A stretch of 64,000 bases of DNA from Volutella citrinella (taxonomy: Eukaryota > Ascomycota > Sordariomycetes > Hypocreales > Nectriaceae): NCBI GenBank assembly GCA_034401135.1, contig JAWZSP010000005.1, positions 1,922,001 through 1,986,000 of the forward strand. The letters are read 5' to 3'. Each line of letters starts with the position of its first letter. Position 1 is the first letter of the stretch. Of the stretch, positions 42,448 through 50,000 are shown piece after piece. Under the pieces are notes generated by a model, which did not search any database, was not told where the DNA came from, and worked only from the letters and a program-made list of their open reading frames with translations. A program made the translations under genes and the position numbers.

Positions 42448-44341
42448 TTACTGACCCTCGGCCTGCGCAACAAGGGCCTTGATATCCTCCACCGCCGCGG
42501 CAAGGTCGATGGCGGGGTCGGTAAGCTCGACTTCTGTACACACAAGTTAAAAATCTAACACCAGCTTTTCTTCATCTGGCTGAAAGGAACTTACCAGGAG
42601 TCTCTGCCGCATCACGTTTACCCAAGCCAAGCTTGACCAGGATATCCGACAGACTGCTAGTAGGGGCCTTGGTCGTTGTGGTCACGGCCGTGGTGGTGTC
42701 CTTGATGGGGTCCTTGGTAGCATCCTTGGTGGAACCAATGAGAATGTCGATGAAGTTCTTGCCATCCTTGACGGGACCAAACAGGTTAGGGGGCAGGTTG
42801 ATGGTAGGCTTCTTGCCATCCAGTGTGCCGACAAGGGTGTTTAGCAGGGTGGTGAGGATGTTGATGAGGCGAGTGGCAAGATTGGTGTTCAATCCGAAAA
42901 CCGAAGCCTTAGCAGTCTCTCGCTTATTAGTGGCCGGAGCCGGGGTGTCCGGCTTGCTGCGGACAATATCGACAATGTCGATGATCTTGGGGAGGACTTT
43001 GATGATCTTGGGAAGTAATTTGACAAGCTTCGTAAGGACAGCCTCTTGGCCTTGCTCAGCGGCCATGGCAACCTCAGCCTTCATGGCCTTGAGCATCTCC
43101 ATGGCCTGAGCGGCCTCAGCGCTCACAGCCCGTGGGATCACCTTGGGCTTGTCCGTAACTGGGCCGGGCAGGGGGGTGGTGGGGAGGGTAGGGGCAGTAG
43201 GGATGATGGTAGTGAGCTTAAAGATCTTGGGAAGAAGCTTTAGGAATACTCGTAGGAGGGCCTCTTGACTCTGCTCAGCGGCCATGGACAGCTCAGCCGA
43301 AATTGACTGGACCATCGCAGCAGCATCCATGGATGTTTCAGCTTGGCCACTGACATCCCGCTTTCCAACAGGGCCTCCAATGATTTGGATGACCCTATCA
43401 AAGTACTTGGGGGCTCTGGGGCCCCATTTCCGAAGGAGATCAAGAATGCCCTGCTCGCCTTGCTGTTGGGCAGCCATAGCAAGCTCAGCTGTCATGCTCT
43501 GAAGCATCTGCGCGTTTTGCATGGCTTGGCCGCTTACTTCCCGCTTTACGGTAAAGGTCTCGACGATTTCAAGGACTTGAGGGAGGACCTTGATGACCTT
43601 TTTGCCAATCTTCTTGATCTTGTCCCAGAGGCCCTGCTGCGCGTTCGCCATGGCCAGTTCAGCCTTGATGGACTGAAGCATCTGGACAGTCTGCTGGGTC
43701 TGAGCAGATTGCATGCTCACATCTCGTGTGCGCATCTTGGGGCGACCCTTGAGCATTCCGCGGAGGATAGACCTAAGTTCGGCCAGGATAGCTTGGTTTC
43801 CTTGCTCAGAGGCCTCGGCCAGGTCGGTCTGGATGTTCTGAAGCATGGATGTGGCCTTTGCGGACAACCCAGCTTCGGCGCTCAAGTCTCGCCCGAAGAT
43901 GCCAATTTGTTTGAAGACGGCTGGGAGCACTTTTTTGAGTACCTCCAGGACGGCCTGTTCGCCCTTGCCAGAAGCCTCGGCGATTTCGGTCTGCATTGAC
44001 TCGAGCATTTGCACACTCTCAGCAGACAAGTCGCGAGCCGCCAGGTCGCGCTTAGGTATCGCCTTCTTGAGCAGATCGATGACGACGGGAATCAGTCGAA
44101 GGGCCGCGGGTATCGAGATGGCCTTGTTAGATTGTCCGGCCAGTTCGGCGGTCATGGCCTCCAAAGCCTTGACAGACCCCATGGCATTTTCGGCCTTGTT
44201 GGCCTCCAAGCGCTTGGCCAGCTCACCACCGCTGAAAATGCCGGCATCTTCACGGGCGGCCAGAGCAGCGTAGGTGGTGTCTGCTGGAGCGGCGAGAGCC
44301 GTGGTCAACAGAGCCGTGAGGACGAAAGCAACGGGCTTCAT
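42448..44341 (-). CDS. secreted Kex2-processed repeat precursor of amphipathic helical peptides
   Basis: Exons 44341-42595 and 42533-42448 (donor GTAAGT, acceptor CAG, phase 1) encode 610 residues; no known family is recognised. Residues 1-18 form a signal peptide (MKPVAFVLTALLTTALAA). KR pairs end at 44, 98, 267, 328, 474 and 576, and are usually followed by Asp or Glu; single or spaced basic sites end at 30, 103, 151, 206 and 404. Six homologous modules start after residues 103, 151, 206, 267, 328 and 404 with [DEA][LV]S. Each continues with an Ala/Met/Gln helix (MLQSMTAELAMA type) and then an amphipathic helix, mostly cationic (e.g. GLWDKIKKIGKKVIKV, KLVKLLPKIIKVLPKI). Residues 475-576 form a longer Thr/Leu-rich unit, and 577-610 an acidic tail. 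The layout fits fungal Kex2-processed repeat proteins: secretory cleavage would release many peptides. Antimicrobial, toxic or self-assembly roles are inference. Confidence 0.85.
42920..44032 (-). repeat. six diverged coding modules of about 45-76 codons
   Basis: Protein-level tandem repeats (residues 104-474). The shared core is basic-site, [DEA][LV]S, a Gln/Ala run, MLxS[MI]xAExAMA, a Gln/Gly turn, and a Leu/Lys/Ile helix. Modules 3 to 6 are most alike. Divergence is too large for simple DNA-level tandem identity. Confidence 0.85.
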
Positions 44342-44488
44342 GTTGACAGTTGACGAATGTGGATGTTTGCTTGGTTCAAGGAAAGGCTTTTTGGGGGATC
44401 AACTCGTGGATTGGTCCAGGTTAAGGAGTGATAGGCTTGGGGAAGAAAGCGATGATGACATCTTCTTTCGAACGGCGCTCCACCGCAT

Positions 44489-44494
44489 CTTATA
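44489..44494 (-). promoter_or_regulatory. possible TATA box of the repeat-precursor gene
   Basis: TATAAG on the minus strand, about 150 bp upstream of the ATG at 44341. A canonical TATA box would suit a strongly or conditionally expressed secreted product. Confidence 0.35.
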
Positions 44495-46697
44495 CACAGA
44501 CGCATCCGATGAGGTCTTAATATCAACAGCTTCCCATGACTGTCTCGGTGTGTCTTCGGAGACACGAGGCAAGAACAGCGAGTACCGTTGCACGGGGCCT
44601 CCGACCTGTCACTCCGAGACGGAATGGAACCTGGCCCAGCTCGTGGAAGCGACTCAAACAAGAGGCCATTGGCGAACTGGTGAAGCTCGGCAGCAACGAG
44701 AAGGTGGATCCATCCACGTGCGATGGATGTCGGAATGCTGGCGGCGATCCTATAACGGCAACGGCTGAAATGGAGCATCCAAGCCCAGGGTGCCTTTGCC
44801 AACAAGGCGAGACACTGCTCTGGGCGGAGAATGCTGGACGGAATGGCCTTGTTGTAAGTGCTGGACACGATCGCGCACAGCCGCTCCCTCTCAGTGAGCC
44901 GGAGACGTGTAGTTGCTGACCATGGTGGCGCTTATTCCAGAACTGATGTTGAGCTCAGGGTTCAGAGGTTGCCATCATTGCCATCACAGGGACTAATACA
45001 GCTGGACATGGTTGATGGCACTGACCATCGAGCAATATCTGGTGGCTCCCAGATGGATTGACCAAGAGCTCTGGAATTGGAACGCGGGATCGAACGTGTC
45101 TCGTTGTCGTTGGAACGAGTCCATGGTTGCGCAGCCGTGCGAAGGAGCAGAACATGGCCCGCATGGTTGTGCCACAACTATCTTCGCCGTCCGTCTATCT
45201 GGCTGCCTAAGCGGCTGAGCTTTGGACCTTGGCCCTTGAGTATGGCAGACTGGGACAAGGCTGAAGGTCACAAATGCGACTCAGGCCAATTCCGAGTGAG
45301 GCCAGTCTCGTAAGGGGTGGTCAATGGCAGCTGCCAGTCCATTACTGCCTGTGGGTGGATAAGGAGTCAAGCAACATGGCTGAACGGATGTCATCATCCA
45401 CTTGGACAGTGTCGAGATCCTCCGCTCGGGGAATTGGGGCGCTGAGCTGACTCCAGACATGGGCGGCTATGTTCCCGTCAGTACTCGTTCTCTCCGTTCC
45501 TTTTCGCGGCTGTATCTCAGCATGAGCCACCGTAGGGTAACCAGCCAGAGGGCGCTGGATAGACCGCACTAGATAACGAACAAGCAAAGTCCAGGCAGAC
45601 AGGATTGGGAGACGACTCGAGGAAATGATGTTGAGGATGGGTTTGCTGATCGACTTGCAAGACATCTACTTGGTGGAATCCGTACACACGGGGTGAATGA
45701 TCGACCAGCTGCTCCTTCACGTCGGGGGACGTTTTGCAACCTGCCGTCTCCGACTTGTGTCACCTTACCCAACCCATTGGTCACACAAGGCAGGCGCCGT
45801 ACATGTACCGCATCTCCGCAGCATGCAGCAGCTCAGCTCTGCATCTGCACAGTGCCTTTCTGAGCAATGACGTCTCCCCTAGGCATGCTACGAGTCCCAG
45901 TCAACCAGCCTGCCTTGTTAGCATATCCGAAATTATTGTGATTATTGTGTTTACTAGCCCAACAAACACACGACGACTCGCAGTTGCAGCGAACAGCCTC
46001 TTGGTCAGCCCCTTGCTGGCCGTCCGAAGGCTGGGTGGGTGCTGTCGGAAGCTGAGCCAGGTCTGTGCCAGCGTCCATACCACACCACACACACTTCATC
46101 ATCCCTGCGCCTGGCGATTGGCCGGGAAGCTCGCTGACTGGGGATCGCCCACGGTACATACCGCTGGGAGTGTCCTAGTCGCCGCCGGAGCGAAAGCTTC
46201 TGGCACTACTAGTCGCAGTTATTGAGTGGGCGATAACGCCCCCATTGGCACCGATTGAGTCGCCAAATCCCGTCAATTGAGTGCCGCACGGCGCCGATTT
46301 GATTAATATCGCACCGGCCAGCGCACAGGCTCGATCTGGCGTGCCTTGGACCGTCCCTGTTCGCCGCACGCGACCAGCCAGGCCCAGTTGAGCTCAGCGG
46401 GGACGTGGAAGTGTTGGGGGGGTTAGGAAGTGGAGGGGGAGGAGGGCTCTAGTGAGCTTTACCGCTCTAGGGGATGAAACGAAGAGCGACGACCTCGCCG
46501 TGGCCAGAAAAATCGTCACCTTAGATTGGGGGCTAGCGGTAACGAGTTAGCAGAAGTAAAACCATGGCACTTCGTTGTCTGCCGGGCTTTGGCTTGGCTT
46601 GCCCGGCCTGGATGGATCATGGTTTGGTCGGTGAATCGGCGGTGGATGTCAAAGCACAGGCCAAGCTCTTTGTGACTTGACTGGTGGGGAGAGAGTG

Positions 46698-47018
46698 TGA
46701 CTCCCCCGCCCACCGTGGACGGAGCGCTGTACTGCGTAGTAGGTGCGGTGTGCCACTGCCCGCACCGCCAAAAGGAGAATTTTTGAGCAATGTCTTATCT
46801 TATCGGGCGCCGTTCACCGGACCGCCTTTTTTTTCCTCTGCCGCACGGAACCCTGCACGAACGACCTTGTCCTGTGTATTCCTCCCCACCGACCCGGATT
46901 TCCAAAGAGTCACCGGCTCTTGCCTCCTTCACATTGCCAACTCCAGACTCTCAATCGAATTGGGTCTCTAACGAAGGGCAAGATTGCCAGCGGGACGGTG
47001 CCATCCAAGCATTGACTC
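46698..47018 (+). promoter_or_regulatory. cluster of TGACTC (Gcn4/CPC1-type) sites
   Basis: TGACTC at 46698-46703, its reverse complement GAGTCA at 46907-46912, and TGACTC at 47013-47018, all within 340 bp of the arginine-specific CPS start. Gcn4/CPC1 proteins bind TGASTCA and control amino-acid genes, including arginine genes (established knowledge). None is the full palindrome. Confidence 0.4.
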
Positions 47019-47033
47019 GCCTGCACCGCCGCA

Positions 47034-50000
47034 ATGCCTGCTAATCTCCTGGCAAACACCATCGCTGGCCGAGCTCCGGCTCTGCTCCGCCATGGACGTC
47101 GCATCCCGCGAGCTCTGCCCGCGCGCGCCTTCTCCTCGGCCAGCGTCGCCCGCGCCCGCACTTCCATCCTCGCTGCTTCTGCCCGTCCTGCCCTCTCCAA
47201 GCGTCTCGGCACCGTCACCGTTCGAAGCTTCGCCTCTGTCTCCAGCGAGGCTCCCGACCCCAAGGCCTACCTGGCGAGCGGCGCCATCAAGCCCTCTCAG
47301 ACCGTGGATGTGAAGAAGGTCCTCGTCATTGGCAGCGGTGGCCTTGCCATTGGCCAGGCCGGCGAGTTCGACTACTCAGGTTTGTACTCCTCCCCTTGAA
47401 TCCGTCGTCAACAGGTCCATCTCGCCATACATGTCGTCCGGGGAGAGTCAGAAAAAAAAGCGTGTTGGTGGTGATGGTTCTGGTGACTCACCAGCCGGGC
47501 CTGGAATGGAACGAACCCCTCCCAGCTAACTCGATTGCTTCAATCCAGGTGCCCAAGCTCTGAAGGCTCTCAAGGAGGCTGGCGTTGCCTCTGTCCTTAT
47601 CAACCCCAACATCGCTACCATCCAGACCAACCACAGCCTCGCTGACGAGGTCTACTACCTTCCCGTGACTCCCGAGTATGTGAGCTACGTTATCGAGAAG
47701 GAGAAGCCTGATGGTATCTTCCTGTCCTTCGGTGGCCAGACCGCCCTCAACCTCGGTGTCGAGATGCAGCGACTCGGCCTCTTCGAGAAGTACGGCGTCA
47801 AGGTCCTCGGTACCAGCGTCCGAACCCTCGAGCTCAGCGAAGATCGTGACCTCTTCGCCAAGGCCCTCGAGGAGATCAGCATCCCTATTGCCAAGTCCAT
47901 TGCCGTCGGAACGGTTGAGGAGGCCCTCGATGCCGCTGAGAAGGTCGGCTACCCCATCATCGTCCGAGCTGCCTACGCTCTGGGTGGCCTGGGCTCCGGT
48001 TTCGCCAACAACGAGGAGGAGCTTCGCAACATGGCCGCTCGATCACTCACTCTCTCGCCCCAGATTCTTGTTGAGAAGTCTCTCAAGGGCTGGAAGGAAG
48101 TCGAGTATGAGGTTGTCCGCGACGCCAACAACAACTGCATCACCGTGTGCAACATGGAGAACTTCGACCCTCTTGGCATCCACACTGGTGACTCCATCGT
48201 CGTGGCTCCTAGCCAGACTTTGAGCGATGAGGAGTATCACATGCTCCGAAGCGCTGCTATCAAGATTGTTCGTCACCTGGGCGTCGTCGGCGAGTGCAAC
48301 GTCCAGTACGCTCTGCAGCCCGATGGCCTCGACTACCGTGTCATTGAGGTCAACGCCCGTCTCTCCCGATCCTCGGCCCTGGCCTCCAAGGCCACTGGCT
48401 ACCCCCTGGCCTACACTGCCGCCAAGATCGGTCTCGGACACACTCTCCCCGAGCTCCCTAATGCCGTGACCAAGACCACCACGGCCAACTTTGAGCCTTC
48501 TCTTGACTACATCGTCACCAAGATTCCCCGATGGGATCTTTCCAAGTTCCAGCACGTCAAGCGAGACATTGGCAGTGCCATGAAGTCTGTCGGAGAGGTC
48601 ATGGCCATCGGCCGAACCTTTGAGGAGTCCTTCCAGAAGGCTATTCGTCAGGTCGACCCTCGCTTTGTCGGCTTCCAGGGCGACAAGTTTGAGGATCTCG
48701 ACTTTGAGCTCCAGAACCCTACCGACCGCCGATGGCTGGCTGTCGGACAGGCCATGCTCCACGAGAACTACTCCGTGGACAAGGTTCACGAGCTGACCAA
48801 GATTGACAAGTGGTTCCTCTACAAGCTGCAGAACATTGTTGACTGCACCCGCGAGCTTGAGGCTGCCGGCAGCCTCGAGGCCCTGAAGAAGGACCAGATC
48901 CTCAAGGCCAAGAAGATGGGTTTCTCCGATCGACAGATTGCCATGGCCGTCAACAGCACCGAGGATGCCGTCCGTGCTCAGCGAACGAGCCTGAACATCC
49001 GCCCCTGGGTGAAGAAGATTGACACCTTGGCTGCCGAGTTCCCCGCGGACACCAACTACCTGTACACCACTTACAACGGCGCCTCCCACGACGTTACCTT
49101 TGAGGACAACGGCACCCTCGTCCTTGGCAGCGGAGTCTACCGAATCGGCTCTTCTGTCGAGTTCGATTGGTGCGCTGTCAGCGCCACCCAAGCTCTCCGC
49201 GCCATGGGCGAGAAGACTGTCATGATCAACGTAAGCGATATCTCCTCCTTGACACATGCGAATAAACTCAATGCAAATGCTGACATATCGCTACCAGTAC
49301 AACCCCGAGACCCTGTCCACCGATTTTGACATGGCCGATAAGCTGTATTTCGAGGAGTTGAGCTACGAGCGAGTGATGGATATTTACGAGCTCGAGAGCG
49401 CCCAAGGCGTCATCGTCTCCGTCGGCGGCCAACTCCCTCAGAACATCGCCCTCCGCCTGCAGGAAACTGGTGGCGCCAAGGTCCTGGGAACTGACCCCAA
49501 GGATATCGACAAGGCCGAGGATCGTCAAAAGTTCTCTGAGATCCTCGACAGCATTGGTATCGACCAGCCCGCCTGGAAGGAGCTTACTTCCGTCAAGGCC
49601 GCCGAGGAGTTTGCCGATGAGGTCGGCTACCCCGTTCTTGTCCGACCCAGCTACGTCCTTTCTGGTGCTGCCATGACGGTTATCCGCAGCCAGGATGAGC
49701 TCAAGGACAAGCTCGAGGCCGCCAGCAATGTCTCTCCTGACCACCCTGTCGTCATCAGCAAGTTTATCGAGGGAGCCCAGGAGATTGATGTCGATGGTGT
49801 TGCCTCCAAGGGTAACCTGATCGTCCACGCCGTCAGCGAGCACGTTGAGCAGGCTGGTGTCCACTCGGGTGATGCTACTCTGGTCCTCCCCCCCACCGGC
49901 CTCGATGCCACCACCATGGAGCGTGTCAAGGATATTGCCAAGAAGGTCGCCAGCGCCTGGAACATCAGCGGTCCCTTCAACATGCAGATCATCAAGGCCG

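Follow-up and report, generated by a model that had tools for sequence, protein, structure and literature searches.

The window, by which we mean the whole 64,000-nucleotide stretch of Volutella citrinella DNA analysed here, carries on its minus strand (44341 to 42448) a gene for a protein of about 610 amino acids (611 codons including the stop). The protein has a predicted signal peptide, seven homologous modules that each split into an acidic and a cationic part and have helical periodicity, a pattern of Kex2-type sites, and a leader and a tail that recur in other proteins. The gene and its repeat architecture are not due to chance, and we consider it likely that the product is a Kex2-type repeat precursor. 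Kex2-processed repeat proteins are already known as a kind of precursor; this one offers seven specific predicted peptides, all built on one plan that couples an acidic to a cationic part.

The original prediction described a secreted repeat precursor cut by Kex2 into amphipathic helical peptides. As an observation it is confirmed, with corrections to the number of modules, the length of the protein and the boundaries that are single Arg residues. As an interpretation it is partly supported, because the sequence architecture stands and a toxin or antimicrobial action is not settled.

Gene model and modules

The frame of the gene had a codon score of 0.17 and was alone among the six frames in having no stop; the runner-up scored 0.04 with 6 stops. 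Read without splicing, the frame is open from 44341 to 42572 on the minus strand and gives 589 amino acids. The length had been predicted as 590 residues, and the spliced model, with its probable 61-nt intron and 86-nt second exon, gives about 610 instead. No cysteine is present in the predicted precursor protein (about 610 amino acids). Two open frames lie on the plus strand opposite the gene, at 43343-43999 (218 amino acids) and 42633-43109 (158 amino acids), and we read them as shadows of the coding frame. A signal peptide, as had been predicted, can be read by eye from the sequence. All features are listed in Table 1.

Table 1. Features of the precursor gene and of two genes in the same genome that share parts of it. 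Positions are those of the window unless a contig is named; the slash marks a boundary.
Feature	Position	Strand	Residues	Remarks
Exon 1	42595..44341	-		582 whole codons; no stop; top codon score of the six frames
Signal peptide	44288..44341	-	1-18	MKPVAFVLTALLTTALAA; by eye; common to P0003, P0004 and the C4 gene
Short pro-piece	44252..44287	-	19-30	Ends LAAR/E
Spacer	44210..44251	-	31-44	Ends LAKR
Module 1	44048..44209	-	45-98	Ends KR; most divergent; from alignment and charge count
Module 2	43889..44047	-	99-151 (or 104-151)	LAAR before 104; ends IFGR
Module 3	43724..43888	-	152-206	Ends MRTR
Module 4	43541..43723	-	207-267	Ends KR
Module 5	43358..43540	-	268-328	Ends KR
Module 6	43130..43357	-	329-404	Pro/Thr-rich end; ends VIPR
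Module 7	42920..43129	-	405-474	Ends KR; modelled as one helix, pLDDT 65
C-terminal fragment	42614..42919	-	475-576	Thr-rich; ends KR; no module copy
Probable intron	42534..42594	-		61 nt; GTAAGT donor at 42594, ACAG acceptor ending 42534; read from sequence
Exon 2	42448..42533	-		86 nt, in frame; conserved tail and stop (42448-42450)
C4 gene	C4:59217-62337	-		Related by leader and tail; some 60 kb into contig C4
C1 protein	C1 (L015:5482-7518)	-		678 amino acids; Thr/Leu/Gly-rich amphipathic repeats; similar tail

Residues 45-474 divide into seven homologous modules of 53-76 amino acids, each with a terminal Arg, and not into the six of about 45-76 residues first described. When the modules were aligned in pairs, 19 of the 21 pairs scored above all 500 shuffles, and the two weaker pairs (reached by 6 and 13 of 500 shuffles) both include module 1. 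In these alignments R404 was counted as the first residue of module 7 and not as the last of module 6; module 2 was taken from residue 104 in one of them, and the TTG codon that opens module 1 was read as Met. The C-terminal fragment did not clearly resemble any other fragment, its scores being reached by 45 to 346 of 500 shuffles, and a search with the C-terminal region of exon 1 matched only itself.

If each module is split at a point set by eye, the first part has a net charge of -1 to -6 and the second part a net charge of +3 to +6 with its terminal basic residues, or +2 to +5 without them, in all seven modules. Pairwise identity is 45% in the core of the first part and 26% in the 20 columns that open the second part. 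There is no cleavage site between the acidic and cationic parts in the modules. The pairing of an acidic with a cationic helix, as predicted, is borne out by the charge split and by the helical periodicity, and has to be qualified for the trimmed modules as wholes, which are near neutral (net charge -3 to +2).

Over residues 45-474 the hydrophobic moment peaks at 100 degrees, with a z of 6.5 against 100 shuffles, and there is no moment excess at the beta periodicity of 160-170 degrees. The top 18-residue stretch of each of the seven modules has a net charge of 0 to +5 and a moment of 0.53-0.75. Helical moment had been proposed as a check on the predicted peptides, and these values address it. 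AlphaFold2, given the seven modules as an alignment, modelled residues 3-59 of module 7 as a single helix with modest confidence (pLDDT 65, pTM 0.25). The view that the modules would form a family of amphipathic helical units is supported at the level of sequence.

Processing sites

KR occurs six times, at residues 43-44, 97-98, 266-267, 327-328, 473-474 and 575-576, in agreement with the claim of at least six; about two are expected after residue 20, and at least six were seen in 0.8% of 20,000 shuffles. The residues that follow are, in order, L, D, E, D, E and D, so Asp or Glu comes next at five of the six sites, which is what had been meant by mostly. Four further boundaries, at residues 103, 151, 206 and 404, are single Arg residues (in LAAR, IFGR, MRTR and VIPR) followed by D, D, D and A. 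The bounds predicted for the peptides were 98, 206, 267, 328, 404 and 474, and all of them are module ends, although those at 206 and 404 are a single Arg and not KR. The four single-Arg boundaries nevertheless keep to the common register R/[DEA][LV]S, which occurs six times, a number that none of 20,000 shuffles reached.

After the signal peptide there are 22 Arg residues, 13 of which sit in a dibasic site or in one with an aliphatic P4. Asp or Glu follows 9 of these 13 and none of the remaining 9 (one-sided Fisher 0.0014, which flatters the pattern since the aliphatic-P4 class was picked after the sites had been seen). The same test gave Fisher values of 0.05 and 0.2 in the relatives P0003 and P0005 taken alone, and the pattern fails in the C4 protein, where three of the four Arg residues before Asp or Glu are at non-Kex2 sites. 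LAAR or a similar Kex2-type site ends the leader in the window gene, in P0003 (also LAAR/E) and in the C4 gene (LSRR/E), and by eye the pro-piece has a comparable end in P0004 and P0005.

The expanded Kex2 motif is given as LxxR in PMC8528282, and PMC2515848 describes a Kex2 S1' pocket that may take Asp or Glu. Elsewhere in the genome we found a kexin P-domain match over 58 of 86 positions. Together, the six KR sites, the R/[DEA][LV]S register, the pattern of the Arg sites, the Kex2-type end of the leader and the kexin P-domain support Kex2 cutting.

Relatives by leader and tail

Of 8000 candidates scored, none was a homologue of the full exon 1 protein at E<=0.01, and a divergent relative of the cargo could escape such a search. 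With residues 1-210 as the query, and again 8000 candidates scored, we found P0003 (metagenome, E 8e-4) and P0004 (E 2.9e-3), which is protein BKA56DRAFT_565754 of Ilyonectria sp. MPI-CAGE-AT-0026. The similarity to both is confined to about the first 56 residues, at 46-48% identity. The leader of P0003 as a query returned P0003, P0004 and P0005 (metagenome) from 930 candidates. Rep1 and Ece1 were absent among the matches listed in the protein searches. Pfam gave four matches, including dermaseptin at E 0.37, and because all were under the curated cut-offs we dropped them as evidence of family; a PDB search gave no match at E<=1. Two weak matches of modules 5-7 within the same genome were also dropped: C1:1831503 (E 0.91), a long ORF that is PAS/histidine-kinase-like by eye, and C1:3164682 (E 1.04).

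The leader recurs once more in the same genome, at C4:62239-62337 (61% over 33 residues, E 3.9e-5; the reverse search was also run). For the tail, P0003 matched C1:6239473-6239742 (E 3.6e-5) and C4:59217-59363 (E 1.1e-3). The tail pairs window-C4, C4-C1, C4-P0003 and C1-P0003 each scored above 2000 of 2000 shuffles. The direct pairs of the window tail with C1 (reached by 10% of shuffles) and with P0003 (38%) were not significant, and we tie the window tail to these two because each of them matches the C4 tail. A search with the C1 tail matched only itself. There is also a site at C5:1472391 that resembles the C4 tail at E 1.13.

What the relatives carry as cargo differs. The C4 gene shares leader and tail with our precursor, whereas its cargo is a 976-amino-acid open frame of Leu-rich 17-residue units punctuated by LP, in which 19 of 31 successive LP spacings are exactly 17, an 85-residue super-repeat is present, and KR or RR appears only from residue 906. 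The leader at C4 and this frame probably belong to one gene, with a putative intron between them. Eleven Pfam matches were found in the C4 protein, five of them above or near the cut-offs (EAD1, T2SSF, SesA, FAD_SOX and Sde2_N_Ubi_yeast); in our opinion they come from the Leu-rich repeats, and we did not accept them as true domains. The ORFs beside the C4 gene resemble, by eye, an enoyl-CoA hydratase and an MFS transporter. In the C1 protein we looked through 658 residues and saw neither KR nor RR. The helical moment at 100 degrees is high in C4 (z 12.7) and C1 (z 8.5), and there is no excess in P0003 (z -0.8) or P0005 (z -0.6).

The Ilyonectria-type proteins (P0003, P0004 and P0005) have the prepro-leader in common with the precursor, and KR and LxxR sites throughout, often before Asp or Glu, but their cargo is Gly/Leu-rich. 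P0003 and P0004 differ, by eye, by a block between the similar stretches EETLHSLGGL and DESLLNLGGL, which suggests that whole peptide units may be gained or lost by unequal exchange.

A speculative reading, and one we doubt, is that these proteins form a family with a secretory chassis, where a Kex2-cleaved prepro-leader and a tail helix would be kept and the cargo between them replaced wholesale. The cargoes would be two-part helical peptides, Gly/Leu peptides and 17-residue Pro-punctuated helices, and the idea that the chassis delivers them as a membrane-active cocktail seems to us equally doubtful. Cargo replacement is said to be how venomous snails and frogs come by their conotoxins and skin peptides, and the chassis, if true, would be a fungal counterpart. 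The kept leader and tail with differing cargo let one ask whether fungi build peptide arsenals in this way.

Genomic surroundings

The window is C5:1922001-1986000 of an assembly that has 26 contigs and a total of 45.1 Mb. Its introns, gene content and the Ilyonectria match suggest a fungus close to the Hypocreales. The eight neighbouring ORFs that we scanned all belong to housekeeping families: Mpo1-like, carbamoyl-phosphate synthase (two ORFs), NPL4, ORC winged helix, ATG22, CHORD and ubiquitin hydrolase. Among these eight we saw no biosynthetic cluster and no UstYa-type enzyme. A genome-wide UstYa search gave no match, and the search's own control gave none either. There is no tRNA in the window, and Rfam gave no match at gathering score. 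Between the gene and the carbamoyl-phosphate synthase gene lie about 3 kb (44342-47660) for which the ORF lists show no recognised frame.

Possible functions

We infer the cleavage and release of the peptides, their action on membranes and their target, as follows. The explanation that we tentatively prefer, as quite possible though short of probable, is a secreted polyprotein that Kex2 would cut into helical peptides that are membrane-active against neighbouring or host cells. The signal peptide and the short conserved pro-piece would be removed from the secreted polyprotein, and Kex2 in the late Golgi would cut after Arg at KR or aliphatic-x-x-R, usually before Asp or Glu. Kex1 would then trim the exposed basic residues from the cut ends. 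This would free some seven helical peptides, each around 50-75 residues long, in which a conserved acidic part rich in Ala, Met and Gln is joined to a variable part that is cationic and amphipathic. During transit the acidic part may hold the peptide near neutral and soluble; once outside, the peptide would enter membranes by its cationic part.

Membrane-active helices are supported by the charge split in all seven modules, the variable second part, the helical moment and the helix modelled for module 7. A plain cationic-antimicrobial reading is weakened because the trimmed whole modules are near neutral. Also against membrane attack are the four single-Arg boundaries, the lack of a cleavage site between the acidic and cationic parts, the different cargo of the relatives (in two of them with no KR inside), the non-Kex2 sites in C4, the modest confidence of the module 7 model and the lack of any antimicrobial-peptide or toxin match over cut-off. 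The nearest alternative is that the peptides would act like surfactants on the hypha: freed by Kex2, as in Rep1 of Ustilago maydis, they would assemble at its surface or at an air-water interface and alter wetting or attachment, and would not be toxins. We hold this to be possible and somewhat doubtful. It would not call for second parts that are consistently cationic, and the Rep1 peptides form amyloid-like fibrils as described in PMC4617103, whereas our modules are helical and without beta periodicity. Still, Rep1 is the nearest described architecture (PMC4617103), near-neutral modules suit such a role, and C4 and C1 in the same genome are large amphipathic repeat proteins; because their repeats are mostly or wholly without KR, an interface role fits at least as well as membrane attack.

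C4 (KR or RR late in the frame) and C1 (no KR) are not obviously cut into units, and they have the tail in common with the precursor, C4 the leader too. It could then be the whole secreted amphipathic repeat protein that acts, with Kex2 taking off no more than the leader and possibly the tail. We find this improbable, given the KR excess, the sites in register with each module, and the KR and LxxR sites throughout the Ilyonectria-type proteins. That the freed peptides are signals or pheromone-like ligands, and not membrane-active agents, is very unlikely in our judgement: modules of 53-76 amino acids with second parts about 26% identical are unlike near-identical short pheromone repeats, even though mating factors and mutualism modulators are among the KEP products that have been characterised, as described in PMC9769878 and PMC6339444.

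Comparison with known systems

The KEP rule, as given in PMC6339444, asks that cutting at KR/RR leave four or more fragments of at least two residues, that three or more of them be similar (by FIMO), that repeats make up at least 15% of the protein, and that the protein be SignalP-positive without a membrane segment by TMHMM. Cutting exon 1 gives seven fragments (26, 54, 169, 61, 146, 102 and 6 amino acids, the last cut by the exon end). Fragments 2-5 are alike, judged by local alignment and not by FIMO: for five of the six pairs 0 of 500 shuffles reached the score, and for one pair 3 of 500. The repeat share, worked out by hand, is about 35% (4 x 54 / 610). Module length does not speak against this class, since PMC6339444 lists motifs from 3 up to 352 residues long. 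With its signal peptide read by eye, the precursor fits the KEP class in substance. Like KEPs as described in PMC6339444 and PMC7329392, it has a signal peptide, at least four KR/RR fragments and at least three that are alike; it differs from them in its long and divergent modules, its four single-Arg boundaries and its two-part acidic/cationic design. KEPs are described in PMC9769878 as widespread in fungi, with functions largely unknown. The statement that no named family could be recognised is thus half right, since a published class fits and the cargo had no match in the searches made. In the open-licence literature, judged by title and the start of the abstract, we found no description of the two-part module, of the cargo for which no relative turned up, or of the leader-tail family with differing cargo.

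Dikaritins have short near-identical cores, and the precursor has modules of 53-76 divergent residues in their place; this length and divergence support the distance from ustiloxin-type RiPPs that had been pointed out. K2PP effectors also have an N-terminal pro-piece ending in LxxR, but they release one domain, and in the precursor repeats come next.

By description and not by sequence, Rep1 appears to be the nearest architecture. It has 652 amino acids with twelve amphipathic repeats of 34-55 amino acids and Kex2 sites between them, as described in PMC4617103, and Hum3 (828 amino acids) is similar. The precursor resembles both in size, in its imperfect amphipathic repeats and in the Kex2 sites between them. 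Hum3 also has a hydrophobin domain (PMC4617103), and the precursor has no Pfam match over cut-off. The best functional parallel, again compared by description, would be Ece1 of Candida albicans, the source of candidalysin. As described in PMC5784256, Ece1 likewise holds several peptides between KR sites, and its product is amphipathic and membrane-active, cut by Kex2 and trimmed by Kex1. Ece1 has 271 amino acids and yields one cytolytic product of 31 amino acids (PMC5784256), whereas the precursor has seven homologous modules of 53-76 amino acids.
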